Origin: an uncultured Bacteroidales bacterium
GTDB taxonomy: Bacteria > Bacteroidota > Bacteroidia > Bacteroidales > Paludibacteraceae
Length of the DNA: 64,000 nucleotides
Assembly (NCBI GenBank): GCA_902769535.1
Contig: CACXPH010000006.1
Coordinates: 87,507 to 151,506 of the forward strand
Direction: 5' to 3'
Position numbers and translations under genes: made by a program. This document shows positions 1,226-61,886 of the stretch, in pieces. Positions within the stretch are counted from its first letter, which is position 1. Every line of letters starts with the position of its first letter. The notes under the pieces were generated by a model that saw nothing but the letters and a program-made list of their open reading frames with translations, searched no databases and was not told the DNA's origin.

Positions 1226-3006
1226 GGCTGCGACAGGGCATCAAGGCCTGCAGAGAGCGCGAAGAGGGTGACGTTCCAGTTGATGGTCACCTCATTGGAG
1301 GCGTAACTGGGTTGATAGTCCAGATAACTCTCATCCGCCGGTACGTTCTTCGGGTACTTCACCCCATCCGTAGCGGCATCTTGTTTGTCAGGATTCGGTC
1401 CTCCGGCAAGGAAGCCCGGTAGTGTGCCCTTCGGATGCGAATAGGACAGACGATGGTGCGGATGGCTCGTCGGGTGAGCACCAAAGCCCGTGACGTAACA
1501 GAAACCAGTTGCGTTCTGACCAAGGATGTAGTTGAGGCAACGCTGTGCGTTCACCATATAGCGATTGTCACCCGTCAGACGATAAGCATACAGACATTCG
1601 ATTCCGCGCCAGCAACACCCTTCCGAGTTGCAACCCCAGAAGAAATCCGATTCGCGGTTGCCGTAAGGCGATTTATAGACCGAAACGGTTGTTGCCTCAT
1701 TCAGATAGGACTCTAAATGCGCCAACAATTGGTCATTGGTTATTTGTAATTGGTCATTGTGCATCAGGAGTTCCAGATACGCCAGTTCTGCCACGTTGCC
1801 CCATACGGCAGGCGTATAAACGCTGCCGATTTGTGATTTATGATTTATGATTTCAGATTTGTAGAAATCATCGCCGGTAAGCAGATACAACTCCGTAGCA
1901 GCCCAGAGAAACTCATCACGTACATCGAAGTCGTCGTAGGCGCCGGTATTGATGGTCGGTTGAAACTCCTCATTCATTTTCGGCTGGTCGTAATAGACAT
2001 CGGGGTGCTCGAGTGCCCATCCGTAGGCGCATAAGGCCGCTTCTTCCGCCTCGACACAGAACCGCCCAAGGGTATTCTTATACGGCGCATAGATGCGTGC
2101 AGCGAGCGCCATCGTAGCGGCAAAGTCCAGTGCGGCGGCTGTGGTCTTCATGACTACATATCGCTGCTGTTTGCACTGATCGGGACGGATGAACTTCTCG
2201 AAGTTCGGGGTGGTTAGTTTATGGTAGACACCGCCATCCAAATCCTGCATAGTCATCATCCAGCGGATGTTATACATAGCCTCGGCAAGCATGTCAGGGA
2301 GCCTACCCTCTGTCCCTCCCCGAAGGGAGGGAGGTATGTTCAGGCTAAGCGTATCAAAGTAGGCCTTATTCATCTCGTACGCCATGAGCCAGACGCCCAT
2401 GGTATAGCCGGAGTTGACGATGTACTTGTTATAATCGCCTGCATCATACCAACCGCCCGGACAAGAGATAACGGTTCCTTCGGGACGGAGGTCGGTGGCC
2501 GCAGAGGCATGCACGAGTACATGATCATCCGGGTGTCCGGCGGGACGCGCATAGCCTTCGGCATAGGGTTCTTCGGTCGCCATCGAGGCGCGCTGGTGAT
2601 AGAACGCGCGGAGGGCAGCACGAGTGAGCTCTTTATAAGGGCGCGGCTCGATTGTAAATCGAGATGACGTAATTTCGTTATTACGTACTATCGACAATGT
2701 GTAAACACCGGGCTCTCGAAGCTCCGAGAAATCGACAAGTTGACAGGGTTTGCCGGAAATGGGATTAAGGATGACGGGTGAGAGGTGAGAGGAGAGAGGA
2801 ATAGTATCTCCGTTTTCGGTAAGAACGAAAACCTCGCTAACCGCCAACCGTTCATCGCTTAACGTTATCGTGGCCGTTTTCTCCTGTTCAGGCGCAAAAC
2901 CAAGTTGGTTCAATCGTATTGGACCATTATCGGGGTTCGTATAGTGCGTGCAGCTACTTAAGACCGCTAGCGCTGACAGAATACAGAATACAGATATTTT
3001 TCTCAT
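1222..3006 (-). CDS. GH9 endoglucanase lipoprotein with N-terminal Ig-like domain
   Basis: 594 residues. A lipoprotein signal ends LAVLSSC at residue 19, so it is probably outer-membrane anchored. Residues 27-120 form the Ig-like CelD_N domain (GPIRLNQLGF start). The catalytic GH9 domain follows: DAGDYNKY near 188 (nucleophile and base aspartates), HHR near 517, and NEVTINWN with the likely proton-donor Glu572. It should cut internal beta-1,4-glucan bonds. It lies 1 base after the symporter gene and overlaps the epimerase gene by 4. The gene holds five in-frame repeat words (SSHLSPV, RNNEITSSRF, PPSLRGGTEG, SEIINHKSQIG, NDQLQITNDQL) that resemble intergenic repeats elsewhere in the window; all fall outside the catalytic motifs. 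Confidence 0.93.
   Translation of the reverse strand: MRKISVFCILSALAVLSSCTHYTNPDNGPIRLNQLGFAPEQEKTATITLSDERLAVSEVFVLTENGDTIPLSSHLSPVILNPISGKPCQLVDFSELREPGVYTLSIVRNNEITSSRFTIEPRPYKELTRAALRAFYHQRASMATEEPYAEGYARPAGHPDDHVLVHASAATDLRPEGTVISCPGGWYDAGDYNKYIVNSGYTMGVWLMAYEMNKAYFDTLSLNIPPSLRGGTEGRLPDMLAEAMYNIRWMMTMQDLDGGVYHKLTTPNFEKFIRPDQCKQQRYVVMKTTAAALDFAATMALAARIYAPYKNTLGRFCVEAEEAALCAYGWALEHPDVYYDQPKMNEEFQPTINTGAYDDFDVRDEFLWAATELYLLTGDDFYKSEIINHKSQIGSVYTPAVWGNVAELAYLELLMHNDQLQITNDQLLAHLESYLNEATTVSVYKSPYGNRESDFFWGCNSEGCCWRGIECLYAYRLTGDNRYMVNAQRCLNYILGQNATGFCYVTGFGAHPTSHPHHRLSYSHPKGTLPGFLAGGPNPDKQDAATDGVKYPKNVPADESYLDYQPSYASNEVTINWNVTLFALSAGLDALSQP
1727..1760. repeat. In-frame tandem word in GH9 (TTGGTCATTGGTT type)
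   Basis: Two close copies of AATTGGTCATTG around GTTATTTGT. They encode NDQLQITNDQL in a loop of the GH9 domain. Confidence 0.7.
1829..1862. repeat. In-frame tandem word in GH9 (GATTTATGATTT type)
   Basis: Four near copies of GATTTATGA or GATTTGTGA. The same A/T-rich word family is intergenic at 26891-26955, 57650-57690 and 60820-60850. Here it encodes SEIINHKSQIG. Confidence 0.7.
2308..2346. repeat. Palindromic CCTCCC/GGGAGG repeat inside GH9
   Basis: CCTCCC-CGAA-GGGAGG (2315-2330) plus a G-rich tail. Read on the minus strand, the order of arm, loop, arm and GGGTAGGCTC tail matches the copies at 49079-49118 and 61612-61650. It encodes PPSLRGGTEG. Confidence 0.75.
2667..2686. repeat. ACGTAAT...ATTACGT palindrome inside GH9
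   Basis: A 20-base inverted repeat with 7-base arms ACGTAAT/ATTACGT. It is the same word family as the intergenic stretches at 5596-5638 and 11876-11915. Confidence 0.6.
2776..2799. repeat. GGTGAGAGGTGAGAGG tandem word inside GH9
   Basis: A purine-rich direct repeat (GGTGAGA units) encoding SSHLSP on the minus strand. Confidence 0.55.
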
Positions 3007-3007
3007 A

Positions 3008-4351: not shown

Positions 4352-4357
4352 AGGTGC

Positions 4358-5590: not shown

Positions 5591-5638
5591 ATCTTTTTCG
5601 ATGTTACGTTAATACGGGATTACGTTATTACGAAGGGA

Positions 5639-11855: not shown

Positions 11856-11875
11856 GATATCATGATTTATTTTTT

Positions 11876-11915
11876 TTCGTAATTACGTAATTACGTAATA
11901 CCGTCATTACGAATT
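11876..11915. repeat. TAATTACG tandem word between GH94 and GH5
   Basis: Three overlapping units of CGTAATTACGTAAT followed by a diverged unit. The same word occurs between genes near 5600 and in coding sequence at 2667-2686 and 56776-56811. Confidence 0.7.
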
Positions 11916-25300: not shown

Positions 25301-26890
25301 ATGAAAAAGTATCTTTTAATCGTATTGGTGGCCATGACGGCTGTAGCTTGTAATCAACGCGAGCTGAACACCCGTGTAAGTAACACCACCGGTTGGAATT
25401 ATTTTGATCAAAAGACCACGAATTTCGAGGCCAATGAAGGCGTGGGTAATGTGCACCCGGTAGGTATGCTGCCTATTCAGGGTGGTTCGTTCACGGTAGG
25501 TGAGAAGGACGAGTTCCTTACCGCTCCGCGTAACAACGAGACCCGTACGCTGACCGTCAGCTCGTTCTATATGGACAAGTATGAGGTGACGAACCTGAAC
25601 TGGAATGAGTATCTGCATTGGTTGGACTTTGTCTTCGGTGCATTGGCTCCGGAGTTGGTTGACCAGGCTCGTCCGGATCATACGGTATGGCGTGAGGATT
25701 TGGCTTACAACGATCCGTATGAGGACAACTATTTCGATCACCCGGCTTTCTCTTTCTACCCGATCGTGGGTGTGACCTGGGAGCAGGCTATGAAGTACTG
25801 CCAGTGGCGTACGGACCGTGTGAACGAGATGGCGCTCATTAATGCCGGCGCGATTGTCGTTCCGCCGTTTGGCGATCTGCAGCCGACGGACGACGAGGCA
25901 TACAAGGATGAGTGGGAGCAAGAGACCGGCTACGAAATGTATGCATACGAGGAGGTTAGCCCGGAGGATCCGGAGCAGACCGTAACGATGTATCGTCCGA
26001 GCTACGAGTGGATTCGTGATAAGTTTGTATTCAATACCGAGAAATATCTCATGGATGACAGTTATGTACCTGAGTACGGTCGTCGTCCGAAATTCGATAG
26101 CTACGGCGCAGAGCGTAAAGTCACTCGTGCCGATGGTATTTTCGTGACGGGTTATCGTCTGCCGACGGAGGCTGAGTGGGAGTTTGCCGCGTATGCTCCG
26201 GTTGCCGGTGAGGACGGTCTGACCATCGAGGGTAAGGTGTATCCGTGGAGCGGTTATCATCCGCGTGACATGAGTAAGAAGAACCTCGGTCAGTTGCAGG
26301 CTAACTTCGTTCGCGGTCGCGGCGATATGATGGGTGTGAGCGGTGCGCTCAACGACCGTCATGTGATCACCAACCCGGTAGATGAGTTCGCTCCGAATGA
26401 TTTCGGTTTGTATAACATGGCCGGAAACGTGAACGAGTGGGTAATGGATGTATATCGTGAGACAACATTCCAGGAGACCAGCGAGTACAACTCATACCGT
26501 GGTAACATCTACAGCCATCCGGTATTGGATGAGAATGGTAAGTATGTGATTGACTCGGTAGGTTGTGTCAAGATCAGTTGGGGTAAAGAGGATGATAAGC
26601 GTGACGCGAAGGATGGTGATTTTGCCAGTCTGATCGATACCGATTATCCGCTGGACACCGTAGGTGTAGCTAACCTGAGTGAGGTGAAGACAGATCCGAC
26701 GGACATCCTGGCTCCGCGTATCACGAAGAAGAGCCGCGTGTACAAAGGTGGTTCGTGGGCTGACCGTATCTACTGGCTTAATCCGTCCACTCGTCGTTAT
26801 CTCGACCAGGATCAGGCTTCGTCTAAGATCGGTTTCCGCTGCGCAATGTCAACGCTCGGTGATCAGATCCCCGGCACTCCGGTAAAGTAA
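25301..26890 (+). CDS. GldJ/GldK-like lipoprotein with FGE-sulfatase fold (T9SS)
   Basis: 529 residues from the ATG at 25301 (an upstream ATG at 25277 is possible). Lipoprotein signal VAMTAVAC. An FGE-sulfatase domain follows: MLPIQGGSFTVGEKDEF near 55, SFYMDKYEVTNLNWNEYL near 85, PIVGVTWEQAMKYCQWRTDRVNE near 155, GYRLPTEAEWEFAAYA near 285, NMAGNVNEWVMDVYRE near 375, and YKGGSWADR...RCAMS at the end. GldK/PorK and GldJ ring lipoproteins of type IX secretion share this fold; the WRTDRVNE pattern and isolated position fit GldJ better. No porL, porM or porN follows. It fits the T9SS cargo downstream. Confidence 0.82.
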   Translation: MKKYLLIVLVAMTAVACNQRELNTRVSNTTGWNYFDQKTTNFEANEGVGNVHPVGMLPIQGGSFTVGEKDEFLTAPRNNETRTLTVSSFYMDKYEVTNLNWNEYLHWLDFVFGALAPELVDQARPDHTVWREDLAYNDPYEDNYFDHPAFSFYPIVGVTWEQAMKYCQWRTDRVNEMALINAGAIVVPPFGDLQPTDDEAYKDEWEQETGYEMYAYEEVSPEDPEQTVTMYRPSYEWIRDKFVFNTEKYLMDDSYVPEYGRRPKFDSYGAERKVTRADGIFVTGYRLPTEAEWEFAAYAPVAGEDGLTIEGKVYPWSGYHPRDMSKKNLGQLQANFVRGRGDMMGVSGALNDRHVITNPVDEFAPNDFGLYNMAGNVNEWVMDVYRETTFQETSEYNSYRGNIYSHPVLDENGKYVIDSVGCVKISWGKEDDKRDAKDGDFASLIDTDYPLDTVGVANLSEVKTDPTDILAPRITKKSRVYKGGSWADRIYWLNPSTRRYLDQDQASSKIGFRCAMSTLGDQIPGTPVK

Positions 26891-27509: not shown

Positions 27510-27569
27510 GCCCGAATTTTCGTTTATTTAGAAGCGACAAACAATCAACATTTATTAACAATAAAGCTT

Positions 27570-33500: not shown

Positions 33501-36500
33501 GATAGCTATATCATGCACCCGGCTGTTGAGGCAGGTTATGTACAATTGGGTTCGGCTATTACGAGCTACTCGTATCTGCCTCACGCGCTTATCACTACTT
33601 CGTCCGGCTACAACTACGGTTACGGTCCGAGTGACTGGAGTCAGGGTAAGACGGGTATTCGTTGGAACGCAACTTCTTCGTACTACGGCCAGTATGTGAT
33701 CATGCCGGCTTTGAATGAAGCGAAAGATCGTTCGTTCGAGTTCAAGTTCCGTAACGGATATACATACCCGAAGGGTGATTCTCTGGTTATCTCAACGCCA
33801 TCAGACATCAGTATTGAGATAGGTACAGTAGATAAGTTCAAAGGTATGGAGACCTACCAGAAACTGGCTACTATTAGCATGGCGAAATTGCCGACCGATG
33901 TGGCATTGAAGGAATCGAATGACTGGTTGTGGCGTAGTTACACGCTCGATCTTGACTCGGCTACCATCGCTGACAAGCAGATCGTATTCTTCCAGGCAGA
34001 GAAACCGACGGCATCTAACTATCCGTACATCGATAATGTGAAGATGGATGCTCCGAAGGGCTTCGGTCTTGTATCGCTTGACAAGATTCAGGCTGAGGCT
34101 ACCAAGGCTACTGTTTCGTGGGAGAATCTCGGCGGTCCGTGGAACCTCTATATCTTGAATGCTAACGGCGATACGCTGAAGCGTTACGAGAACCTCACCG
34201 CCACTTCGCAAGAGGTAACCGGTCTGAGTCCGAAGACGAAGTACAAAGCTGTTCTGACGGCTGCTAATGCACCGAAGGGCACGAAGTACTACACAGCTGA
34301 TTCTCGCGAGTTCAACACACCGTGTATGCCGATGGAGGCAGACGTAAACGGTGAGTTCTTCTGGAACTTCGATGATCCGTATGATTGGGAGCAAAACGAT
34401 GTACTGGGCAATGTAGCAGCGGATACGGCTTATATGAAGCCGAGCTGCTTCACGGTGGGTACTACCTACGTAGGCACGCAGTCGAACGGTTATCAGTGGC
34501 TCCTCCAGTGGAAGGGTTACGACTACTACTCGACGCTGGCTACCTACACGACGACTGGTACCTATGCACACCACGAGATCGGTTATGGTGATAGCCGTGG
34601 TTCGCTGCGAGTTTACACTTCGAGTACCTATTGTAACGATGATGTTAAGAACTACATCGTTCTGCCGGAACTCAACTGTGACCTCGATACGATGATGATC
34701 GAGTTCTACGGTCGTCCGTTCGCTAACCGCGATGAAACGTATTCGACGGCTACGCAACGTGGTCAGGTAATCAGTACTTCTTATCTCGGTTCTCACTCGC
34801 TGGTAATCGGTACTTTGACCGACCCGAAAGACTTCTCGACATTGGAAGTTATTGATACCTTAGTGTATGCTGTTCCTGCTGGTTTGAGCACCTCTACCAA
34901 GGTTAGTACAGACCCGACGGGTAACCGCTACTGGCAGAAGATGCAGTTGCCGTTGGCAGGTACGAACGGTAAGTATATCGTAATGTTCCAGCCGGCTTGC
35001 AACGCTACTGCAATATTCTTCGTGGATAACCTGAAAGTGGCACCGGTGGGTGATAACCTCTTCGCTCCTTCGGGTACAAGCACCAGCAACGTAACCGCTA
35101 CCTCGGCTACCTTCAACTGGACGGCTAAACATCCGGCAATCCAGACTATAGTAGTTGTTACCGATCAGGACGGCGCAGAGGAAATCCTCCGAGATACCGT
35201 TGCCGGCAACGTAATGACCTACACGGTGGATACACTGCAACCGGCTACCGGTTATGTATGGTATGTATATCAAACGAACGGAAGTGTTGAGACCTCGCAT
35301 GCAGGCAACGTTCAGTTCTATACCGAGTGTGTAGCTATTGCTTCGGATTATGCAACGGGCTTCGAGTTGACCGATGGTTGGAAAGTCGTTCCGGGCGCAT
35401 CCTCCGATACCTACAAGCAGACGATGTGTTGGACCTATGGTAATGCCGGAACAACGACCTCTTGGTCTTCTTCGTTCCCGTACAACTATGTGAACGGTAC
35501 CACTCTGTATGCTCATAAGGGCGCATATGCGGCTAAGCTGTATGCTTATACCACGACGCTGCAGACCTATATCGCTATGCCGGCTATCGACGACGTAACT
35601 GCATACGATACGCTCCAGGTTAACTTCTGGATCCGTCCGGCTTATGCAAGCGCTTCGACAGGTAAGATCTCGATGCAGTACACCTTAGGAAGCACCGCTG
35701 CTACCAAGGAGTACTACTACTCGAAGGCTGTCATCGTGGGTACGATGACCGATCCGAACGATGCATCGACCTTCGTGGCTATCGATACCGTTAATTACAA
35801 TGGTACGCTGGCTACTACCGATGTAGTCAACGAGGCAAATGACTTCCTCTTCCAGCCGAAGAAAGTCGTTCTCGCTGGTGCTCAAGGTAAGTACATCGCC
35901 TTCATGGCTACGCTCTATGCGAAGGGTGAGACACGTAAGTCAACCTATGATCATATCTGGATTGATGACATCTCGCTCACACCGGTTCAGCGTTGTGAGG
36001 CTCCGGTTCAAGAGACGATGACCGCAACGGAAGTAGGCGCACACAAGGCTACCCTCAATTGGGCGGCTAAAGAAAGTGCTGCAAGCTATGTTCTCCAAGT
36101 TTCGACCGACTATACCTTCACAGAGGATACGGCATTCGTTTACAACGATACCGTTAAGTCCAACACGTTCACGGTAACCGGTCTGAAGGCTTATGAGGAT
36201 TATGTATGGCGTGTACGTACGATCTGTGCAGACGACCTCGGAGAGAGTGAGTTCTCGATGAACGCGAACTTCACGACTGCTCGTGAGCCGTTCTTCGTTG
36301 AGACCTTCGGCGCAGCTAACCTGGATGCGGATTGGCTGTTCGCTACCAACCCGGCTATCACGGTTATTGACAGCACGGATGTAGAGTTGACGGGTGCTAA
36401 TAGCACATCGTACGGTTGGCGTCGTACGAATGTAGGTACGAACAACTACCACTACGCTGCACTGTTCTATTCCAGCTCGTCCACAACGACGGTTGACTAC

Positions 36501-37770: not shown

Positions 37771-37802
37771 AGAAAGGGCTGCCTTCGGGTAGCCCTTTCT
37801 GT
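37771..37802 (+). terminator. Terminator of the giant adhesin-like gene
   Basis: AGAAAGGGCTGCC-TTCG-GGTAGCCCTTTCT, a 13-pair stem closed by a stable TTCG loop and followed by a weak T-rich stretch. Confidence 0.8.
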
Positions 37803-37810
37803 TGATACCT

Positions 37811-37854
37811 TATCGTATGTTTATCGTATGTATATCGTATGTTTATCGTATGTT
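37811..37854. repeat. 11-bp tandem repeat TATCGTATGTT x4
   Basis: Four units with one substitution. The same unit occurs twice at 47768-47790, again just behind a T9SS cargo gene. Confidence 0.85.
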
Positions 37855-37932
37855 TGTCCTTATCAGAAATTGGACAAAAAGAAAGAAATCCGTTGCAAAA
37901 AGAAGAAAAAAAGACGAAAAAGGCGCAAAAAC

Positions 37933-47500: not shown

Positions 47501-47764
47501 GACGGAGTCAAACTCTTCACCTGTCCGTTCATTCCGGTAGAAGTACCGTCGGATATAGTCGATGTGCCGACGCTCGTGAACCTCACCTCGCAGATTCCGA
47601 TGAAGGGCAAGGGTGTGGCATACTGGTACGACATGCTCGGCCGTTGCTTCTCGCGCGAGGACTACAACGACTCTGCCATCACCGCGCCGGGCATAGCAGG
47701 CTATTACCTGCTCGTCCTCCAAACGGACGAAGAACGCTCCGCACACCGCATGATGGTTCGATAG
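44564..47764 (+). CDS. Large secreted protein, paralogue of the preceding gene, T9SS type A tail
   Basis: 1066 residues; ATGs at 44564, 44567 and 44573 are all possible. Signal peptide ends LTVLPLRAA. It shares the layout of the previous protein: PFSCSFEENEDLSNWVMNN, an FN3-like region, ESRHTIHTDPTETDPRT, GALASVRLGNWATG, WKDWTTIGVNLQPYHGQ and YGYAYFTVDC. It adds cysteine motifs of the form C-N-GCDSVxxLxLxV (near 745 and 810) that are common in T9SS cargo. The tail ITAPGIAGYYLLVLQTDEER plus HRMMVR is a sorting domain. The pair probably arose by tandem duplication. Likely surface structural or binding proteins. Confidence 0.85.
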   Translation: MMNMKRLFSIYVWVVMLTVLPLRAAIPFSCSFEENEDLSNWVMNNPSTATDKWMFGTVVHSEGKRSMYISSDGKNPLYGAHPNIVVSYMRFKFPETGKQQNYDISFDWKGIGNADNAKLYVMVCREDLLTNSQSNNPYYLGRIASATSGILSPTVVNACQQIGPNGDRFLCGSEVWQNVSLTNELRINTTNSTMPFAIVFIWVNNNIDPNVRQSGICIDNLQIGDATIKKPKNVQVEPVCEDSSILVNWESGLKEFEVQYRKVGTNTWRRQDGITDGVEGFTRNGTQCSYALQRIGEATYDVRVLGIAGDLRSNYSYKNQVLVYCPDNHCVAYLDLYGQNVECTYGKNPFVSGSGGGTPFDYHGVMDYGSDAKESRHTIHTDPTETDPRTDDQLLTVPKGALASVRLGNWATGAEAEAITYHITVDSANQGLLIVHYAVVLENPGNHPHDQEPFFQMVVLDEHDNVIDESCGQAEFSYSDGVEAGWNMTKDNTAAWKDWTTIGVNLQPYHGQNIKVRFVTYDCAQTGHYGYAYFTVDCVSARLETENCGNDSKIECYAPEGFAYKWFNELGQVVGTDRELVVDAGRHEYTCRVSFVEDPECWFEVKTVSAPRFPVPEYTVEPIYDQCTSKLRFHNTSHVMNKYDGTETHTHESVQDCHWYFTRLSDHTTTESYNWNPVYTCPEGGDTIVVNYICYIGENNACDSSRVDTIVVPNIVPKNTEFHISTCYSDPVQFGGQWFDKDTVFVGIYPNFAGCDSVSTLYLEVFERPDDIYRHDSICSDSSIMIDGLTFNEPMTNRPFILKTVNGCDSVVYVTLTVNERIDVDVDALAYACADGLSFLIPYDVTVGQYDSLQIRFNTPELRDTTIYDPSVTSVLIPYPADILPGHYTATMRFHQFCCGIRTEKRPFDIRYSNVVITQRWNDVLAIRNADYNGGFTFDSVQWYLDDKPISGATDFNYYAGAGNKLQFGQEYTALLVRRDGVKLFTCPFIPVEVPSDIVDVPTLVNLTSQIPMKGKGVAYWYDMLGRCFSREDYNDSAITAPGIAGYYLLVLQTDEERSAHRMMVR

Positions 47765-47767
47765 GGT

Positions 47768-47790
47768 GATCGTATGTTTATCGTATGTTT
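47768..47790. repeat. 11-bp tandem repeat TATCGTATGTT x2
   Basis: Two units of the repeat seen four times at 37811-37854, in the short gap before the GH105-like gene. Confidence 0.8.
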
Positions 47791-47795
47791 GACCT

Positions 47796-49283
47796 ATGTA
47801 TAACCTTAGGTTCTGTATATTGGTTTTAGCCATTTGGATGGCAAGTTGCACGGTGCAAAAAGAGGGTGCCAAACCTTCTAAAAGCACCGTGTGCTATTCC
47901 CGTGAGATGATTAACGCGCGCATGAGTGCGTGGTATAATAAGGACAATCAAGTCGGTTTTGCCAATGCCAACAGTACGAACGGCATCACCGAACCTGCCG
48001 TGCAAGCGAGTTGGGATTACGTACCGGGCGTCGTAGCCAAAGGTATTTTGGATGTGTGGGAATACTATCAAGATTCCGCGTGGGCGGATGCTTGGTACAA
48101 AGGCCTCTGTACATGGGCTTTGCAGCAGACGGCAACCAATCAAGGTGGTATCCTGGATGATTTGAATTGCACCAAAGTGTTCATCGGTCTCTATAATGGA
48201 GCCAAACCCGGCGGACGTTTTGAGAACGCCGACCATGCCGCCTATTTCATGGAGCAGATGAAGCGCGGAGCCAAAGGTCTCGACGAACATAAACGCCTCT
48301 ATACCATCGCAGGTGGAGGTGCAGCAGGCGGATGGATGCATAAGGCCACGGACAACCCTGCGCAGAGTTATTGGGGGCAGATGTGGTGTGACGGCGCGTA
48401 CATGGGGCAGGCGCTCTTGGCGCAACTCTTAGTGGCCGGCGCGTGCGAAGGAACGTCTCTCGGATGGAATGATGTCTATGACCAGTTCGAGGTCTCATGG
48501 CCTTATCTCTGGGATGAAGAGCAGCAGCTACTTTACCACGTCCTGTTCACCGACGTTACTACCAATCAAAATGCGAAAGCCATCTATGATGCCGGGCATC
48601 TCTATCCTTGTGCGCTCGATTCGACCATCTATCACTCCGAAGAGTATTGGGGGCGGGCTGCAGGATGGTATATGCTGGCGTTGGTCGATGTGCTGGAAGC
48701 GTATCTGATTAGCTTAGAGCAGAGCGGCGAGCGCATGGCGGGAGACCCACTGCCTTCTGCGCAACATTTCGATACCTTACGCGATTACCTGACCCTGCTC
48801 GCAGACGGCCTCGTAGCGCGTCAGGATCCTCAGACCGGCTGTTGGTATCAGTTGCTCCAATACGGTTCCGAGAAATGCGCTACGCAGGGAATAGACGATA
48901 CCGGTTCAGCTAAATACACCAATGTTGCCGAAGGCGGTACGCAGTGTAACTACCTCGAGTCTTCGGCCTCTTGCCTGATCACAGCTGCGTTACTCAAAGG
49001 TTCACGCCTCGGCCTCATCCGTCATACCGAAGCCGGCAAGAAAGGCTACGAAGGAATCTTGCGTACGTTTGTGAAAAATACTCCCTCCCTTTCAGGGGAG
49101 GGCTGGGGAGAGGCTCTTACCATTACTTCCAGTTGCCAGTCTGCCGGACTAAGCAAAGACCGTAACGGCACAGCCGCCTATTACCTCATCGGTAAGGACG
49201 TTCCTATTCAGGATAACACCGAAGGAAAAGTATTGGGTCCTTTTTTGATGGCCGCTGTAGAATACGAAAAACTCGCCCGTTAA
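47796..49283 (+). CDS. GH105-like (unsaturated glucuronyl/rhamnogalacturonyl hydrolase-type) lipoprotein
   Basis: 495 residues with lipoprotein signal AIWMASC. An alpha/alpha six-barrel of the GH105/GH88 group: SWDYVPGVVAKGILDVWEYY near 70, SYWGQMWCDGAYMGQALL near 190, EEYWGRAAGWYMLALVDVLE near 290 and NYLESSASCLITAALLKGSR near 390. GH105 enzymes remove unsaturated uronic acids left by pectin lyases. No lyase is nearby, so the substrate is open. Residues about 428-440 (TPSLSGEGWGEA) are encoded by a palindromic repeat shared with GH9 and mrp. The stop codon lies inside the terminator hairpin. Confidence 0.85.
   Translation: MYNLRFCILVLAIWMASCTVQKEGAKPSKSTVCYSREMINARMSAWYNKDNQVGFANANSTNGITEPAVQASWDYVPGVVAKGILDVWEYYQDSAWADAWYKGLCTWALQQTATNQGGILDDLNCTKVFIGLYNGAKPGGRFENADHAAYFMEQMKRGAKGLDEHKRLYTIAGGGAAGGWMHKATDNPAQSYWGQMWCDGAYMGQALLAQLLVAGACEGTSLGWNDVYDQFEVSWPYLWDEEQQLLYHVLFTDVTTNQNAKAIYDAGHLYPCALDSTIYHSEEYWGRAAGWYMLALVDVLEAYLISLEQSGERMAGDPLPSAQHFDTLRDYLTLLADGLVARQDPQTGCWYQLLQYGSEKCATQGIDDTGSAKYTNVAEGGTQCNYLESSASCLITAALLKGSRLGLIRHTEAGKKGYEGILRTFVKNTPSLSGEGWGEALTITSSCQSAGLSKDRNGTAAYYLIGKDVPIQDNTEGKVLGPFLMAAVEYEKLAR
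49079..49118. repeat. CCCTCCC/GGGAGGG palindromic repeat inside the GH105-like gene
   Basis: Arms CCCTCCC and GGGAGGG (49083-49102) followed by CTGGGGAGAGGCTC. The same arrangement, with tail, is found at 2308-2346 (minus) and 61612-61650. Confidence 0.8.
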
Positions 49284-49295
49284 GGCGAGTCTTTT
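49270..49295 (+). terminator. Terminator overlapping the GH105-like stop codon
   Basis: ACTCGCC-CGTTAA-GGCGAGT with CTTTT after it; the loop contains the TAA stop. Confidence 0.8.
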
Positions 49296-49388
49296 GTATT
49301 AGCGAAGCCAATACATTTTATGCCGTTAAGGCGAGTCTTTTGTATTAGCGAAGCCAATACATTTTATGCCGTTAAGGCGAGTCTTTCA
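49279..49388. repeat. 46-bp tandem repeat built from the terminator right arm and a second hairpin
   Basis: GTTAAGGCGAGTC recurs at 49279, 49325 and 49371, a 46-base period with two full units and a partial third. Each full unit also has the hairpin TGTATTAGCGAAGCCAATACA (stem TGTATT/AATACA). Only the first unit has the left arm of the terminator. Confidence 0.9.
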
Positions 49389-49412: not shown

Positions 49413-51254
49413 TTAGAATCGGTACGTAGCACCGAGCAGGAAATTGATACCTTGGCTGCGGTAACCGTAGAAATATTCGTTCTTGTAATGCAACCAGTTG
49501 TTGAGCTGGAGGAACAGTGCTAAGTTCGGTTTCTGTACCGGACGAAGCGTCGTCGTTTCGCTCTTCACCTTCTTACCCACAACCATCTCGTATTGTACAC
49601 CCGCATTGAGTTCGATGATCGGCTTGAGCGTCACTTCGTTTCCGTCCGAACAAAGTGCATTACGCTTGCCGGCGAAATAGTTATCCGAATACAACGACCA
49701 ATGCTCATCGATTCTGCCGTCCACACGTAGATCTACTTCCCAGTTCGGGCGATCGTAAACCGTCGTACTGCCTTTCCAGAAATAGTAATCGCCATTCAGG
49801 TTGATGCGCACTACATCCTGCAGGTGATAATTGAGTTGACCGCCTATCTTACCGCGCTGGTAGTCTGTGTGCTCGTGTATGAATTCACCTACCGGACGTT
49901 TCATCGTCGTCAGACTGTGTACACCTACTGCGTTGGTATCCACCGTAGCAATCATATAGTCCTCATCTAACATATAGGCATAGCCTCCGTGAATCTCGAT
50001 AAGCAGGTCGCGGTACGGACGGATATGGAAACCCAGTTCGGCATCTACCGGCGTGTACGATGCGCACGGATGCACAATGCCCGCGTGGATGAGACTGTAG
50101 CGGTTCTCCTCCATATAATGCTGCAGCGTACCCATGCCCAGTTCGCCTGTTACGTCCGCATAGATAGTCAGCCATTGTTTGGCAATCTGTGCCTCGAGGT
50201 TGATATGCGGCGACGGTGCAAAATTGAGATTCTCCTTTTTCAGCAAAGGACTGTGAGGCGTTTTGCCGATATTCAGATCCAAGTTTACGCCTACATGCAC
50301 GCGCACGCGCTTTCCTTCATACGCGTAGTACGGCTCGATGCGGAAGTTATGGCGGTTGCTATACAACGAATCCGGAATAGCCGCTGCCAACGTACCGAGT
50401 TGCAGGAAGTTATTCTGCACATATATGTTCGTACCTACATGGTGCTCGTCTGAACTCCTCCAGTCAAACCCGCCTTTCGTGCGGAGTTGGTGCTCGGCTA
50501 CTGCATCCGGCTTGGCAAAGATCATATAGCCCGTCTGCACTTGCCACTGCACGTCTTGCTTGGCATTCGCTTTCACGCCCAGATACGCCTCTGCCGTCCA
50601 TAAGGATGTCTTGTCTTTGTCTCCAAGTGTTGCCGGACGATTGGCATACGCTACCTCATTCTTCTCCCAACAGCCGAAAGTCTGCGTATAGTCGTAGAAA
50701 TGACCGTATTTATAGTAGAAGATATTTCCGCCGTTGAGACCGAAATAGAGGTCGCAATTCGAGAAATTATGCGTGAAATCCAGTCCTACTTTGGTCTTAC
50801 TGAGTGTAGCCAAACCCCACTCGGCATGATGGTGTGCATACACATCCAGGATGGACTTCTTGCCGTCGTCCAGATGATATCCGAAATCGAACAAGGTGTT
50901 CGGATGACCAATCGCTCCGCGTACATACCCGTTGTACGTGCGACCCGCCTCAAAGCGCGTCGGTTGTGAGAGTAGGGGATGGAAAGTCGTACCCGGTTGT
51001 ACATGCGTCGTGTAGTCCGAATACTCCACCGGCGCCGGTTCTATCGTCGTTTCCACAATAGCCGGCTTGGTCGAAACCTTACCTGCTGCCTGAATAACCG
51101 GTTGAAAATCCCGCTCTACCGTTACCGAACGGTTCAACGCACTGTCCTGCTGCGCAAAAAGCGTAGCGCAGACGAGCAGCGCTATTCCCATAATCGGTAA
51201 CCGATAACCGATAACCGATAACCGATAACCCATATTATTAGTCTTCATCTTCAT
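49413..51254 (-). CDS. Outer-membrane beta-barrel protein, partner of the TPR protein
   Basis: 613 residues with a signal region (IMGIALLVCATLFAQ) preceded by a repeat-coded MGYRLSVIGYRLP stretch. No plug domain is seen. The rest alternates like a large barrel (VGVNLDLNIGK, LRVDGRIDEHWSLYSDNYF) and ends in GATYRF with terminal Phe, an outer-membrane assembly signal. It starts inside the last 17 bases of the TPR gene, so the two are coupled. Such proteins are often annotated as TonB-dependent receptors, but nothing here supports TonB dependence. Function unknown; with the TPR protein it may form an outer-membrane export or assembly unit. Confidence 0.75.
   Translation of the reverse strand: MKMKTNNMGYRLSVIGYRLPIMGIALLVCATLFAQQDSALNRSVTVERDFQPVIQAAGKVSTKPAIVETTIEPAPVEYSDYTTHVQPGTTFHPLLSQPTRFEAGRTYNGYVRGAIGHPNTLFDFGYHLDDGKKSILDVYAHHHAEWGLATLSKTKVGLDFTHNFSNCDLYFGLNGGNIFYYKYGHFYDYTQTFGCWEKNEVAYANRPATLGDKDKTSLWTAEAYLGVKANAKQDVQWQVQTGYMIFAKPDAVAEHQLRTKGGFDWRSSDEHHVGTNIYVQNNFLQLGTLAAAIPDSLYSNRHNFRIEPYYAYEGKRVRVHVGVNLDLNIGKTPHSPLLKKENLNFAPSPHINLEAQIAKQWLTIYADVTGELGMGTLQHYMEENRYSLIHAGIVHPCASYTPVDAELGFHIRPYRDLLIEIHGGYAYMLDEDYMIATVDTNAVGVHSLTTMKRPVGEFIHEHTDYQRGKIGGQLNYHLQDVVRINLNGDYYFWKGSTTVYDRPNWEVDLRVDGRIDEHWSLYSDNYFAGKRNALCSDGNEVTLKPIIELNAGVQYEMVVGKKVKSETTTLRPVQKPNLALFLQLNNWLHYKNEYFYGYRSQGINFLLGATYRF
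51195..51232. repeat. CGATAACCGATAACC word in the barrel gene start
   Basis: Four units of an 8-base CGATAACC repeat encode GYRLSVIGYRLP just before the hydrophobic core of the signal peptide. Confidence 0.85.
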
Positions 51255-55466: not shown

Positions 55467-56836
55467 TTTTCTTCTTTTTTATTACGGAAATTGATATATA
55501 TAAGCACAGCTAACATTACGATTAATATGATCGTAAACAACGGACGTAACTCCGGCGTCAATCCGCCTTTGCGTGCGTCCGAATAGATGAACGTACTCAG
55601 CGTCTCCAGTCCGCCGCTACCCTTCGTAAAGAACGTCACACCGAAATCATCTACGGACAAAGTCAGCGCCAAGATAAACCCGCTCAGCATACCCGGCCAT
55701 AACTCCGGCAGCATTACCATGCGCAAGGCCTGCGCAGGCGTGGCACCTAAGTCCAGCGCCGCCTCGTATGTGTTCGGATTCATCCTGCTCAGTCGCGGCA
55801 ACACACTCAGCACCACATACGGCGTACAGAATACCACATGCGCGATACAAACGGTCGCTAGTCCTTGACTCACTCCCATCGCTACGAATAGCAGGAACAG
55901 CGAGATACCCGTGATGATATCCGGGTTAATCATCGGCACGGAGTTCAAGAAACTAACCATCTTGCGATGCCTTGCACGCATGTTGTAGATACCGATTGCG
56001 GCCAGTGTTCCGAGTATCGTCGAGCAGACGGCAGCTATCAAGGCAATAATCACCGTGTACATGATAGCACTGTTCAGACCCGCATCGGCCTTGCCGGTGA
56101 ACAGGTTCACATACAAGTCCATCGAGAAACCTGTCCAGTTACCGAGGATCTTACTCTTCGTGAACGAGAATACGGCAATCAGCGCAATCGGTGCGTAGAG
56201 AACCAGCAGCAATAACCATAGGTACAACTGCGAACCGTAATGACGACGCAACCCCATGCGTTTACGGCGGAGTGTCTCTTGTTCTACCGAGCTGAGGCGC
56301 TTCTCCTTGCGTCGGCTATAGAAGAGATATCCGCCATAAATGGCGGTGCCTACGAACAACAAGCCTGCGAACACCCACCAGATCCAACCACGGCTGCGTT
56401 TTTGTGCGGCGGTGTGGCTGACTATGTAGTCCGTAAAAGTCTTGTAGGCGTTGCTCACTTTCACGCGCTGCGCACGGTTCTTGATCTCCTTCTTGTTCTG
56501 CCAAACAGTCCAAAAAGTGCCGATTTCATCGGTAAAACTATATACACTGTCTCCCCATGCTGCTATCCCCGCTACCGGTACATCCGTGAACGCAAAATCC
56601 AATGAGTCTAACCCCGTAACCGGTAACCGGTAACCCGTAACCGTTATATTGATCTTCTCCCCCGCGTAGCTCTCCGGGAACTCCTGCAGCACCTTCACCT
56701 CTCCCGTCGAGCCTACCTTCAGTTCATACGTCAGGTTCGACTGCGCCGAAAGAGCAGCGCTGCACAGCAAGAGGGTCGTGATTACGTAGTTACGTAATCC
56801 CGTAATCCCGAATTTATATAAACCTTCACCTTTCAT
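55463..56836 (-). CDS. potC: Polyamine ABC importer permease PotC with an added N-terminal periplasmic domain
   Basis: 457 residues; ordinary PotC is about 260. Residues 200-457 are a normal permease (LYLWLLLLVLYAPIALIAVFSF; EAA loop EAALDLGATPAQALRMVMLPELW near 370). Before it comes an extra ~195 residues: a signal-like helix (19-31), a soluble stretch (32-149) with an FN3/Ig-like feel (LTYELKVGSTGEVKVLQEFPE), a transmembrane helix (151-173) and a basic linker. Nucleotides 56776-56852 and 56606-56645, inside this extension, consist of repeat words also found between genes. The added domain may sense ligand or wrap the binding protein, or be a fusion with a neighbouring gene. Overlaps potD by 4 bases. 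Confidence 0.88.
   Translation of the reverse strand: MKGEGLYKFGITGLRNYVITTLLLCSAALSAQSNLTYELKVGSTGEVKVLQEFPESYAGEKINITVTGYRLPVTGLDSLDFAFTDVPVAGIAAWGDSVYSFTDEIGTFWTVWQNKKEIKNRAQRVKVSNAYKTFTDYIVSHTAAQKRSRGWIWWVFAGLLFVGTAIYGGYLFYSRRKEKRLSSVEQETLRRKRMGLRRHYGSQLYLWLLLLVLYAPIALIAVFSFTKSKILGNWTGFSMDLYVNLFTGKADAGLNSAIMYTVIIALIAAVCSTILGTLAAIGIYNMRARHRKMVSFLNSVPMINPDIITGISLFLLFVAMGVSQGLATVCIAHVVFCTPYVVLSVLPRLSRMNPNTYEAALDLGATPAQALRMVMLPELWPGMLSGFILALTLSVDDFGVTFFTKGSGGLETLSTFIYSDARKGGLTPELRPLFTIILIVMLAVLIYINFRNKKEEK
56606..56645. repeat. GGTAACCGGTAACC word inside potC
   Basis: Direct units of CGGTAACC/CCGTAACC encode TVTGYRLPVTG. The peptide resembles that encoded at 51195-51232 (GYRLP). Confidence 0.75.
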
Positions 56837-56852: not shown

Positions 56853-57644
56853 TTAAACGATGGCTTCGCCATCCTTGCTGTCATGGTCGCCGAAGAACGA
56901 CGTCAGACCGATGATGATTAATAATACGAGCGACAGTACTGCGCCGTAGTTGAGCAGGTCAGTCGTGGTGATATAATCCTGAATGAGACTACCGAACAAC
57001 TTAATGTTGTTATGCGTCAATAACTCGGCAATAGCGAAGGTCGAGACAGTCGGCATGAACACCATCACGATACCGCTGTACACGCCCGGCATACTCAGCG
57101 GCACGATGATCTTCCAGAAACTCTGCCACCGGTTCGCGCCTAAGTCCTGAGCCGCTTCTACCAGCGAGTTATCCATCTTCTGGAGCGTGTTATAGATCGG
57201 GTAGATCATGAACGGCAGATAGTCGTAGCACAGACCGAAAAGCAACGCGCCTTCACCTAACGGCAGACCGCACATGTTAAACAACTCTACCGTGGCTACC
57301 GTGCGCAGCAGGAAGTTGATCCACATCGGCAGAATGAACAACATCGCCATCACTTTCGGTGTCTTGAAATCTTCCTGCGCCATGATATATGCCGCCGGAT
57401 AACCGATCAACAGACAGATAACCGTGTTGAACACCGCGATCATTACCGAATATAGGAAGGTCTGGATAGCTTCGCTATGCGTGAAGAACTTCGCGAAATT
57501 ACGCACCGTGAACTGGCCGTTGATATCCGTGAACGCATACACGCCCACCAAGATCAGCGGTAGTATCACAAACAGCGCCATGAACAGCACATACGGCCAT
57601 GCCCACGTCCGTCGCGAAGAGAATATTTGTATGAGTTTACTCAT
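56853..57644 (-). CDS. potB: Polyamine ABC importer permease PotB
   Basis: 263 residues, the usual size. Six transmembrane helices; N-terminus WAWPYVLFMALFVILPLILVGVYAF; the EAA loop is EAAQDLGANRWQSFWKIIVPL near 170. With PotC it forms the inner-membrane channel. Located 27 bases after potA and 16 before potC. Confidence 0.94.
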   Translation of the reverse strand: MSKLIQIFSSRRTWAWPYVLFMALFVILPLILVGVYAFTDINGQFTVRNFAKFFTHSEAIQTFLYSVMIAVFNTVICLLIGYPAAYIMAQEDFKTPKVMAMLFILPMWINFLLRTVATVELFNMCGLPLGEGALLFGLCYDYLPFMIYPIYNTLQKMDNSLVEAAQDLGANRWQSFWKIIVPLSMPGVYSGIVMVFMPTVSTFAIAELLTHNNIKLFGSLIQDYITTTDLLNYGAVLSLVLLIIIGLTSFFGDHDSKDGEAIV

Positions 57645-57671
57645 CTCAAATCTAAAATCTCAAATTTGCAA

Positions 57672-59228
57672 TCATAAATTAGGAATTTTATCCAGAAGAA
57701 TCTTCTTCTTCGGGATAATAATTCCAACCCTATCGCCGTCGTCCCAAACGTCATTCGTGTTCACATACAGGTCGTTCCCTTCGTCCGTACGGATGGTCAG
57801 GTGGTAGTGGTTACCCTTGAACAAGATGAAATGCACCTCACCGCTCAACGTACCTTCTTCCTCATAGTCCTGCAGGTCAATATCGCGGAACTTCACGCGC
57901 ACTTGTACCTTGTCACCGACCTCAAAGCCCTCTAACTGCTTCTCATCCACTTCCCACTCGGCATCCAGGAACCATACCTTACCGTTCTTCAGCACTTCGC
58001 CTTCGAAATAGTTGTAGATATAGTGCTCTTTCTTCATAATCTGGATATCCTCCGGCCGAACCAGCATACCTACTTCCGTGCCCGGCAAGTACTCATGGTA
58101 GTCCTGGATGAGGAACTCATAGTTATCCGGCGTCAACACACGCATCTCATAGTGCACACCTTTGAAGATACAACTCTGCACCTCGCCGTACCATTTGGTG
58201 AATTTCCCCTTCGGCACGCGATCCTCCGGATCATCCTCCGGATGGTTCATCATTTCATCATTGAGCGACGAAGTCGCGCTCATTCCATCATTCTTTTTGG
58301 GCACCGCCCAAATATAGATATCCTCCGGACGAATGACCACATCCACCGGGTTGTTCTCGCCAAAACCGGTATCGATACAGTCGAACTCCTGGCCGCAGAA
58401 CTCTACGCGTTTGTCGCGAATCATGGTTCCGCTTAAGATGTTACTTTCTCCGATGAAATCGGCCACAAAGCAGTTTTGCGGCTCGTTGTAAATATCCGTT
58501 GGAGTACCGATCTGCTGGATCTTACCTTCGCTCATTACCACCACGCGGTCGCTCAGCGTCAGCGCCTCTTCCTGATCGTGCGTGACGTAGATAAACGTGA
58601 TACCGAGTTTCTCGTGCAACTCCTTCAACTCGATCTGCATATCGTGCCTCATCTTGAGGTCCAACGCACTCAGTGGTTCGTCGAGCAGCAGTACTTCCGG
58701 CTTGTTCACAATAGCGCGCGCGATAGCAACACGTTGCTGCTGACCACCACTAAGCGTATCTACTTTACGCTCCTCATAGCCCGTCAGGTTCGCCATCTTC
58801 AGCGCCTGACGCACTTTCTTCTTGATCGTTTCCGGATCCTCTTTCTTCAACTTAAGACCGAAAGCGACATTATGGAATACATTCAAATGGGGGAATAAGG
58901 CGTATTTCTGGAATACGGTATTCACAGGACGTTTATACGGCGGGGTCTTCGTTACATCCTCACCTTTCAGCAGGATAACACCCGAAGAAGCGACCTGAAA
59001 ACCTGCGATACATCGCAGTAAGGTTGTCTTACCGCAGCCCGAAGGACCTAAGATGGTGACGAACTCGCCTTTCTTCACCTGAAGGCTTACGTCATTCAAC
59101 GCAAACTTACCGTCTTCAAACTGCTTGGAGACGTGGTTGACCTCAATAATAAAATCCGATTTTGCCCGGAGCGTCTTCCCATCGGATTGGGAAGAGCGGC
59201 TTCCGCCTAGAAGGGTTTCTTGCTTCAT
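57672..59228 (-). CDS. potA: Polyamine ABC importer ATPase PotA, enlarged
   Basis: 518 residues; typical PotA is 370-460. Walker [10 protein letters not shown] (61-69), signature LSGGQQQR (159-166), Walker B LLLDEP (180-185), then the TOBE-type regulatory region. Two additions are coded by palindromic repeats: residues 4-24 ([18 protein letters not shown], hairpin TCTTCCC/GGGAAGA) and about 312-330 ([15 protein letters not shown]). The catalytic parts are untouched. It has its own promoter 40 bases upstream and is first gene of the pot operon. Confidence 0.93.
58248..58296. repeat. Palindromic repeat inside potA
   Basis: Hairpin TGAGCGAC-GAA-GTCGCGCTCA (one bulge; 58263-58283) flanked by TCATTTCATCATT units, encoding [15 protein letters not shown] in frame. 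Confidence 0.7.
59166..59215. repeat. Palindromic repeat in the potA N-terminal codons
   Basis: TCTTCCC-ATCGGATT-GGGAAGA (59174-59195) followed by GCGG-CTT-CCGC (59196-59206). It encodes residues 4-22 of PotA, outside the ATPase fold. Confidence 0.65.
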
Positions 59229-59465: not shown

Positions 59466-59473
59466 ACAATTTA

Positions 59474-60814
59474 CTATTCCTGCAGACTTTTGCGAGCAGA
59501 AAGCAGTACAATAACAGCCGTGAAGGCTGAAAGGGTGTCGCTGACCGGAATAGACCACCATACGCCATCCAGCGGATCCGCGAAGGCTAAGGGCAGTAAC
59601 AACGCTAAAGGAATGAGGTACAGCACTTGGCGTGTCAGACTCAGGAATATAGCCTTGCCGGCTTTGCCGATAGAGGTGAACAGGTTACCCGTCACCATCT
59701 GGAATCCGATGATGAGCATCGTGCTGCAGATGATACGCATCGGCTTGATCGTCAGGTCAATCAGCATCGGATCATGCGTGAACATCTTCGTTACGACCTC
59801 CGGACAACACTCGCCTAACAGGAACACGATACCCATGACCCCCGTCGCATAGGCGCAAGTGGTGTAGAAAACCTTCAGCACGCGGTCGAACTGCTTGGCG
59901 CCGTAGTTATAGCCCGCGATCGGTTGCATGCCCTGGTTCAGACCCATCACCATCATCGCAAAAACGAACGTCAATCGGTTGATCACACCGTACGATGCGA
60001 TCGCCAAGTCTCCTCCGAAATGCTTCAATTGGTTATTGATGATGATCACTACAAAACAATGCGCGATATTGTACAAAAACGGCGACATACCGATGGCTAA
60101 AGCACGGCTCGTGATGTGCTTGTTAAGGCGCCAAATTCCCCGATGAAATCGAACTAATTCGTTCTTGTCCATGAATTTGGTGAACTGCCAAACAACGGCG
60201 ACAGCTTGACTGATAACCGTCGCCAAAGCAGCGCCCCTTACACCCATCTCCATGCCGAAAATGAACAGCGGATCTAAGATGATATTCACCACCACCGCCA
60301 CGATCGTAGCCGTCATCGAGAATCGCGGGTGACCGGCGGAACGAAGCATGGCATTCAAACCGAAATAGATATGCGTCAGGATGTTTCCGTACAGGATGAT
60401 CTCCATGTAGTCATGGGCAAAGCCCAAGGTGTCTTCGCTCGCGCCGAAAGCCAGCAGGATCGGGTCAAGCCAGATCAGACCCACCGCCATCACGATGGCA
60501 GACAGGATGATATTCATCACGATCACGTTACCTAACACGCGGTTGGCACGGTCGTAATCTTTCTCTCCTAAATATATCGCCAGCAACGACGAAGCACCGA
60601 CTCCTACCAGACTGCCGAAGGCAGCGCAGATGTCCATGAACGGTTTAGCTACCGTCAACGCACCTAACGCCAACGCTCCGCATCCGTGACCGATATAGAT
60701 ACTATCCACGATATTATACATCGAGGTTGCGGTCATCGCTATGATGGCCGGCATCGCATATCGGAATAGCAATTTATGTATCGGCGCGGTGCCGAGTTCG
60801 GCAGTTCTTGACAC
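59474..60814 (-). CDS. MATE-family multidrug or cation exporter
   Basis: 446 residues, twelve transmembrane segments in two similar halves. IGHGCGALALGALTVAKPFMDI (near 48), GYNYGAKQFDRVLKVFYTT (near 290) and GMQPIAGYNYG are MatE features. It exports organic cations or drugs using Na+ or H+. It lies 31 bases after mrp and is probably co-transcribed. The closest subgroup is NorM/DinF-like; substrate unknown. Confidence 0.92.
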   Translation of the reverse strand: MSRTAELGTAPIHKLLFRYAMPAIIAMTATSMYNIVDSIYIGHGCGALALGALTVAKPFMDICAAFGSLVGVGASSLLAIYLGEKDYDRANRVLGNVIVMNIILSAIVMAVGLIWLDPILLAFGASEDTLGFAHDYMEIILYGNILTHIYFGLNAMLRSAGHPRFSMTATIVAVVVNIILDPLFIFGMEMGVRGAALATVISQAVAVVWQFTKFMDKNELVRFHRGIWRLNKHITSRALAIGMSPFLYNIAHCFVVIIINNQLKHFGGDLAIASYGVINRLTFVFAMMVMGLNQGMQPIAGYNYGAKQFDRVLKVFYTTCAYATGVMGIVFLLGECCPEVVTKMFTHDPMLIDLTIKPMRIICSTMLIIGFQMVTGNLFTSIGKAGKAIFLSLTRQVLYLIPLALLLPLAFADPLDGVWWSIPVSDTLSAFTAVIVLLSARKSLQE

Positions 60815-60845
60815 TTCTAAATCATCAATTATAAATCATAAATCA

Positions 60846-61886
60846 TCAATCATCTATCGCTTTGGCGATTTCCGCAAATGCGATAGATGCAGGGTGCCCT
60901 GCTTGCAGCACAATCGGAGTACCCTCATCGCCACCCTCGCGGATGGACTGCACGAGCGGTATCTGACCGAGCAACGGTATATCTAATTCTTCCGCCAGTT
61001 TTTTACCTCCGTCTTTGCCGAAAATGTAGTACTTGTTATTCGGCAATTCCGCCGGTGTGAACCACGCCATATTCTCGATGAAACCGAGGATTTTTACATT
61101 CACCTTCTCGTTTCGGAACATCTCCACACCCTTCCGTGCATCGACTAATGCCACCGGTTGCGGAGTAGTTACTACAATGACGCCCGTCAACTGCAATTCC
61201 GAGATCAGCGTCAGGTGAATATCGCTCGTTCCGGGAGGCAGGTCAATCAAGAAATAATCCAACTCACCCCAGTGTGCGTCTTCGATCAATTGCTTAATCG
61301 CATTCGATGCCATTCCTCCGCGCCAGATAACGGCACTTTCCGGATTGACGAAGAATCCGATGGACAGCATCTTAACCCCATACTGCTCGATGGGCTCGAT
61401 CAGCGTCCGTCCGTCTTCTTCCACCGACACCGGTCGACAGTCTTCCGTATGAAACATCTTCGGCATTGACGGACCGTGAATATCCGCGTCCAATAGGCCT
61501 ACGCGGTATCCCTGTTGTGCCAATGCTACCGCCAGGTTTGCCGTTACGGTCGATTTACCGACTCCGCCTTTTCCGCTGTGAATGGCGATAATATGCTTGG
61601 CGTGGATTTTACTCTCCCCTCCTTTCATGGAGGGGGCGGGGGTAGGCTTCTTTATATGAATCTTCGCGGCCACATTCGGATCGATATACGTCTGAAGAGC
61701 CACTTCCGCAGCCTTCACCACCGACTTCTGGAACGGGTCATTCTCTTTCTGGAATATCAGCGAGAACGACACCTCATAACCTGAGATGCGTATATCGTCC
61801 TCGAGCATTCCGCTCTCTATCAGATCCTTTCCCGTTCCCGGGTACCGCACATGCCTCAACGCATCAATTACCTGTTGTGGATACAT
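60846..61886 (-). CDS. mrp: Mrp/ApbC-type iron-sulphur carrier P-loop ATPase
   Basis: 346 residues. The N-terminal DUF59/MIP18-like domain (1-75) leads to a P-loop domain with the deviant Walker A SGKGGVGKST (104-113), LLDADIHGPSMP and YFLIDLPPGTSDIHLTL. The usual CxxC pair that bridges a shared cluster is missing: the stretch reads ENMAWFTPAELPNNKYYIFG. Either the cluster is held otherwise or the protein has drifted in function; this form may be normal for the phylum. Residues 80-92 (KPTPAPSMKGGES), in the linker between domains, are coded by the palindromic repeat shared with GH9 and GH105. Confidence 0.93.
   Translation of the reverse strand: MYPQQVIDALRHVRYPGTGKDLIESGMLEDDIRISGYEVSFSLIFQKENDPFQKSVVKAAEVALQTYIDPNVAAKIHIKKPTPAPSMKGGESKIHAKHIIAIHSGKGGVGKSTVTANLAVALAQQGYRVGLLDADIHGPSMPKMFHTEDCRPVSVEEDGRTLIEPIEQYGVKMLSIGFFVNPESAVIWRGGMASNAIKQLIEDAHWGELDYFLIDLPPGTSDIHLTLISELQLTGVIVVTTPQPVALVDARKGVEMFRNEKVNVKILGFIENMAWFTPAELPNNKYYIFGKDGGKKLAEELDIPLLGQIPLVQSIREGGDEGTPIVLQAGHPASIAFAEIAKAIDD
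61612..61650. repeat. CCCCTCC/GGAGGGG palindromic repeat inside mrp
   Basis: Arms CCCCTCC and GGAGGGG (61616-61635), then GGGGGTAGGCTTC. Relative to its gene it lies in the opposite orientation to the copies in GH9 and GH105. Confidence 0.8.

Follow-up and report, generated by a model that had tools for sequence, protein, structure and literature searches.

A C-rich palindromic element of about 35 bases is dispersed through the genome analysed here and through its genus, and nearly all of its copies in that genome lie in frame within unrelated protein-coding genes. Three copies fall in the window, i.e., the whole 64-kb stretch of DNA that was analysed (Table 1). On balance we favour a dispersed, non-autonomous element like the REPs and the Rickettsia palindromic elements (RPEs), kept where proteins tolerate it; its likeliest way of spread is REP-style, in trans, possibly by a RAYT-type Y1/HUH transposase.

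Table 1. Element copies, host genes and candidate mobiliser in the window.
Feature	Position	Strand	Support and remarks
GH9 host gene	1222..3006	-	PF00759, E 1.6e-74
Element copy in GH9 gene	2300..2334	+	antisense to gene; model R2, E 6.8e-11
GH88/105-type host gene	47796..49283	+	PF07470, E 1.2e-33
Element copy near end of GH88/105-type gene	49081..49115	-	antisense to gene; model R2, E 3.8e-14
mrp host gene (P-loop NTPase, iron-sulphur carrier)	60846..61886	-	PF10609, E 6.8e-92
Element copy in mrp linker	61614..61648	-	sense of gene; model R2, E 2.5e-13
Divergent RAYT-like (Y1/HUH) gene beside mrp, candidate mobiliser	62123..63118	+	NCBIfam NF047646, E 3.6e-8; family A3, E 1.9e-44

Sequence and structure of the element

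Two covariance models were built from the window's genome. R1 came from 10 copies located by a genome-wide hairpin pattern, three of them in the window; R2 came from 25 copies, all outside the window, which avoids circularity. R2 unites the three window copies in one repeat family (E 3.8e-14 to 6.8e-11; match spans 2295-2339, 49076-49120, and 61609-61653), and the next-best match in the window has an E-value of 0.52. The original prediction was right that the three stretches are one repeat, in frame in three unrelated genes, in both orientations (against the gene in the two glycoside hydrolases, with it in mrp), and in the linker in mrp. Its intervals (2308-2346, 49079-49118, and 61612-61650) cut the element, as the arm at one end was missed.

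Read with the arm first, the element has a conserved 5′ arm, AGCCTACCCC, followed by a variable spacer of a few bases, a hairpin, and GGGAG. DNA folding of the window copies gives a C-rich/G-rich hairpin of 7-8 bp with a loop of 4-6 bases. The ends of the A4 consensus are AGCC and GGGAG, and its hairpin foot reads CCGn with the arm first and CT on the opposite strand. Folding z-scores are -2.28 for the GH9 copy, -1.16 for the GH105 copy, and -2.71 for the mrp copy; the stability of the GH105 copy is not unusual (30 of 200 shuffles are as stable).

The hairpin pairs are mostly conserved and in part covarying, though not without exception. For 35 of the 37 matches in the window's genome the hairpins were compared. 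Two pairs change from C-G to T-A in five copies each, and at these pairs one-sided change is absent. The covariation score is 0.201 vs. 0.123 for shuffled data (as high in 0 of 500 shuffles), and 87.1% of hairpin cells are paired vs. 82.4%. Two of five covariation measures were no better than shuffles, and two of the eight pairs are open in 15 and 13 of the 35 copies.

The start of the element is sharp. Purine-rich sequence adjoins the copies, with purines at positions -4 and -3 in 100 and 121 of 131 copies. On the 3′ side of GGGAG, C is scarce over five positions and nothing more was seen (based on the 89 copies whose end is recognised). Some copies form close pairs, inverted or tandem, as in REP dimers, and the Mfd gene holds an inverted pair. 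The purine-preceded start, the kept hairpin and the paired copies are REP-type features.

Distribution in the genome, genus, and order

The draft assembly of the window's genome totals 1.89 Mb over 39 contigs, with a completeness of 84.85%. Among the 150 of 318 candidates that were scored, R1 gave at least 37 matches at E<=1 and 32 at E<=0.001. The weakest (E 0.53, close to a contig end) was discounted because the hairpin is absent, which leaves about 36 copies. The further copies that the prediction called for in the genome and its relatives are thus present: element matches (E<=0.001) were found in 49 of the 61 genomes of the genus examined, the window's genome included. They number at least 587, from 0 to at least 60 per genome, with up to 61 candidates scored in each. 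Outside the genus, three of 40 genomes had matches (7, 1, and 1). Of 295 genomes sampled from the order, four outside the genus had one or two matches at E<=1e-5; this survey has low sensitivity, with 21 candidates scored per genome, and the window's genome itself gave just 21 matches in it. The family is genus-wide and rare outside the genus. Judged by Mrp, the closest named relatives are genomes of Paludibacteraceae and of uncultured Bacteroidales, many of them sampled from rumen or gut, at identities of up to 87%.

Host genes and reading frames

In the window's genome, 34 of the 36 copies (E<=0.04) are in frame and read through, within frames of at least 150 codons. They occupy 32 host genes, with two copies each in Mfd and FtsK; the remaining two copies lie just upstream of genes. 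All 23 hosts submitted to Pfam, out of the 32, match known families. By our interpretation of the Pfam labels, these are GH9, GH88, Mrp, a Na/Ca exchanger, RsmH/MraW, two pyridine nucleotide-disulphide oxidoreductases, an ABC transporter, an acyl-ACP thioesterase, a 4Fe-4S protein, ApbE, Dus, MnmE, an NtrC-type regulator, GH3, an HU-like protein, ArgS, Mfd, UvrD/PcrA, a Wzi-like protein, FtsK, DPP-IV, and EPSP synthase with a glycosyltransferase within one frame. Some copies, judged by eye, sit in signal peptides or just ahead of C-terminal sorting-like regions. Genic copies pooled over the genomes compared run in the sense (48) and antisense (57) direction and use five of the six frames; therefore, no single peptide is selected.

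The genic share differs among genomes. In the window's genome 35 of 37 matches (the discounted one included) are genic, vs. 91% of random positions, and in G021 the figures are 24 of 26 copies vs. 90%. Since these shares are close to those of random positions, the element is not depleted from genes in either genome, although most genic insertions should be harmful. Only 8 of 21 copies are genic in G006, vs. 79% of random positions, and there the element behaves as an ordinary extragenic REP. The shares are 5 of 7 copies in G040 (92% of random positions) and 33 of 44 in a mixed set of the remaining genomes (83%). All sets pooled give 105 of 135, the sets from other genomes being mostly the best-scoring copies rather than a random draw. 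A preference of the element for genes was rejected, as the window's genome matches its own coding density and G006 shows depletion.

Comparison with orthologous genes

Orthologues were aligned for RsmH (30 of 59 genomes with a match), the NtrC-type regulator (30 of 61), GH9 (11 of 14), the GH105-type gene (12 of 27), and Mrp (38 of 80 loci). Presence and absence of the element differ between species. In RsmH, many species have a short baseline, ELVAASRIPAEMSKELARLF; the window's genome and G030 have the element and are 12 codons longer, and several other species have degenerate C-rich palindromes at the site. In the NtrC-type receiver domain, G029, G036, and G058 have a short loop, and the element is present in the window's genome and in G025; the net gain counted on the alignment is about 6 codons. 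GH9 gains about 5 codons over short-loop orthologues, while others hold different filler, and the GH105-type gene gains 8-9 codons over its nearest orthologues. The GH105-type gene of G030 has a 12-base stretch that agrees at 11 positions with the 3′ half of the element, suggestive of what is perhaps a remnant.

In mrp there is no net gain: the linker is about as long as in orthologues, and clean presence/absence was rejected for this gene. Among the 80 named Mrp loci, five element matches (E<=0.1) all lie outside mrp and none inside it. As a separate observation by eye, loci L025 and L028 have other C-rich/G-rich palindromes at the same linker, which R2 does not match.

The expected contrast with orthologues therefore holds in part: shorter-loop forms without the element exist for GH9, GH105, RsmH, and the NtrC-type regulator, but the length of the mrp linker is unchanged. 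The clean insertion of a 36-45 base block with a flanking duplication that had been proposed did not emerge; the net gains are about 5-12 codons, with none in mrp. A target-site duplication, which together with terminal inverted repeats would mark a MITE, was not seen at the aligned loci, where exact junctions are not placeable because the relatives are too diverged (best Mrp identity 87%).

RAYT-like genes and a second palindrome

The RAYT-like gene beside mrp scores 33.4 bits with NF047646 (REP-associated tyrosine transposase), under the cut-off of 80. Its protein has MPDHLH followed by MIRYVQLNPQR, which we take to be candidates for the HUH motif and the catalytic tyrosine. The meaning given to these motifs agrees with a table of PMC6006769. 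RAYT-like genes of this family, A3, are found in 41 of the 61 genus genomes, with open frames of mostly 330-430 codons, and the window's genome has a second one on contig 10. In all but one genome, the matches to the RAYT model are under the curated cut-off.

Copy number of the element is higher in genomes with RAYT-like genes (p = 0.021 at >=90% completeness, 19 vs. 9 genomes; p = 0.034 at 85%; p = 0.072 over all 61), in tests uncorrected for kinship. Copy number shows no correlation with how many RAYT-like genes a genome has (Spearman p 0.47, 0.16, and 0.11 at three limits of completeness). Genome G035, 73% complete, has at least 52 copies yet no RAYT-like match. A clade test (p 0.024 overall, 0.0056 at 85% completeness) was given no weight, being post hoc to the tree and based on a hand-made list of fetched loci only.

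The element does not flank the RAYT-like genes. Two matches were found around 70 loci, and a set of 39 Y1 loci, partly the same, had one, the mrp copy itself. A3 is not accepted as a proven mobiliser, owing to this absence from the flanks and to the one clade with another palindrome. Other candidates were rejected. The Pfam Y1 transposase PF01797 is unmatched in the window's genome and has no link with copy number (p = 0.80), and no element lies in the stretches fetched around the IS200-type gene of G026 or the better RAYT matches in G008, G043, G044, G054, and G055.

The second palindrome, CCCGAATnnnATTCGGG, is in or beside 24 of the 70 RAYT-like loci, which by tree form one clade, and some of its copies are in frame. 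It occurs 48 times in 270 kb of RAYT-like loci vs. 5 times in 324 kb of other loci of the genus. In the form CCGAATnnnATTCGG it is found in the window at 62493-62507, in frame within the RAYT-like gene, and at 63140-63154, and in locus L267 at 2142 and 2541. Contig 2 of G003 and contig 34 of G021 each carry the GH105-type orthologue adjoining a RAYT-like gene.

At a scale of 2.8 kb, the arm-first strand is the locally G-rich strand in 103 of 134 copies, a bias that persists after allowing for gene direction (t = 5.8), and copies sharing a contig tend to agree in direction (p = 0.024). At 20 kb the bias is weaker, with 21 of 32 copies in the window's genome (Wilcoxon 0.027, sign test 0.11) and 17 of 24 in G021 (Wilcoxon 0.17, sign test 0.064). 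Strong at the one scale and weak at the other, replication-strand bias was not accepted as proof of single-strand transposition and is treated as a hint.

Relation to known palindromic repeats

RPEs are described as palindromic repeats that have entered numerous unrelated genes of a single genus in frame (PMC10969869). The parallel drawn in the original prediction is apt, as the Bacteroidales element is likewise a palindromic repeat, in frame in unrelated protein genes of one genus. Unlike RPEs, it is about 35 rather than about 150 bases long, belongs to a different phylum, and uses several frames rather than encoding one conserved peptide. A CGTC terminus is described for RPE-4/6 (PMC3733652), whereas the element ends in AGCC and GGGAG.

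The element resembles REPs of the GTAG and CGTC superfamilies in its size, its hairpin with a one-sided conserved stretch, its dimers, its tens of copies, and its intragenic members. It differs in that the foot of its hairpin has no GTAG or CGTC tag (the 5′ GT[AG]G tetranucleotide of GTAG-superfamily REPs is absent there in the A4 consensus), in not being mainly extragenic in the window's genome, and in not flanking a cognate RAYT gene. Intragenic REPs are reported in several species (PMC3733652), and PMC6006769 describes in-frame REP insertions inside subclass 2.4 tnpAREP genes, also in Bacteroidetes. Those insertions are also in-frame palindromes inside protein genes; the host in that case is the transposase gene itself, a pattern shown here by the second palindrome and not by the C-rich element.

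With intragenic REPs, RPEs, and in-frame tnpAREP REPs already in print, we place the element with the REP/RPE kind and do not regard it as wholly novel. The claim that no family of this kind is described in Bacteroidales was too strong, since descriptions exist of RAYT genes and their associated repeats in Bacteroidetes, and of coding-region REPs in several other groups (PMC6006769, PMC3733652). The titles and abstract starts of the open-licence papers searched name no such element for Bacteroidales, which is no proof of absence.

Origin and spread of the element

The element appears to be mobile. A Y1/HUH transposase of the RAYT type would act in trans on its single-stranded hairpin, and coding copies would persist only if they leave the frame open and add their residues to a loop, linker, or signal-peptide region, and would thus be translated as harmless segments of the protein. 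Movement by a RAYT-type single-strand transposase is possible; that the RAYT-like enzyme is the element's mobiliser we regard as evenly balanced. The main competing account, which we think rather unlikely, is another enzyme or host repair, i.e., template switching or copying driven by microhomology into loops that tolerate it, perhaps through the process that also fills loops with tandem repeats. It would fit the RsmH, NtrC-type, GH9, and Mrp loops, which are occupied by the element in some species and by tandem repeats in others, as well as the finding that no transposase gene at the Y1 loci fetched has the element on its flanks, and net length gains that are at most about the length of the element and nil in mrp. 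However, slippage does not yield the same sharply starting sequence, with covariation in its hairpin, at loci that are unrelated, and shared loops may merely reflect tolerance of anything.

Retention for a function, e.g., as a hairpin in the mRNA or as a flexible stretch of protein rich in Pro and Gly, is improbable. Some copies are each shared at the same site by a pair of species, in RsmH (G000, the window's genome, and G030) and, by eye, in the Na/Ca exchanger (G000 and G044), as such a role would lead one to expect; against it stand the unrelated host genes, the use of five frames and both directions, and the range from 0 to at least 60 matches per genome inside one genus. Chance likeness of C-rich stretches is already refuted. 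The bare hairpin by itself is weakly significant in the window (three matches vs. 0.35 expected; three reached in 1 of 100 shuffles), but the model built without the three copies gives E < 1e-10, and the pattern CCCTCCN{3,12}GGAGGG occurs at nine places in the whole genome vs. 0 for the reversed control.

The copies in core enzymes, e.g., arginyl-tRNA synthetase, are natural insertion experiments. Together with element-free sister species, they open to study the route from short mobile DNA to protein sequence and the non-avoidance of genes. Alongside Rickettsia, the genus offers a second system, one in which many genomes and a candidate enzyme are available. The results also suggest that odd loop insertions in proteins of such metagenome-assembled genomes need not be assembly errors.

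Tandem repeats in the same loops

The tandem units over the RsmH, NtrC-type, GH9, and Mrp loops of sister species are AATTCAC, AAAATGG, GTCGAAA, and CCAATCA. At the site of the element itself, other species have, for instance, AATTCAC units in RsmH, AAAATGG units in the NtrC-type regulator, CCAATCA units in the Mrp linker, and imperfect CGTCAAT units in GH9. As the same loops are filled by unlike repeats across species, they accept many kinds of repeat DNA. Tentatively, tolerant loops of core proteins could serve several families of palindromic and tandem repeats as common landing sites. Housekeeping proteins would thus keep receiving loop sequence from mobile-repeat DNA, and the C-rich element would in some species be mobile without bias away from genes.

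The window has short-period tandem runs of its own (ATAAATC, TACGTAAT, CCGATAA, ATCGTATGTTT), many between genes and some inside frames, which resemble the repeats filling protein loops of sister species. They lie at 1824-1860 (within the GH9 gene), 5598-5636, 11866-11915, 26874-26956, 37794-37873, 47751-47819, 51182-51234, 56608-56646, 56776-56822, 57640-57701, and 60804-60858. A perfect 46-base tandem duplication at 49277-49368 spans the end of the GH105-type gene, and a frame of 3415 codons at 27498-37745 has internal repeats of about 55 bases.
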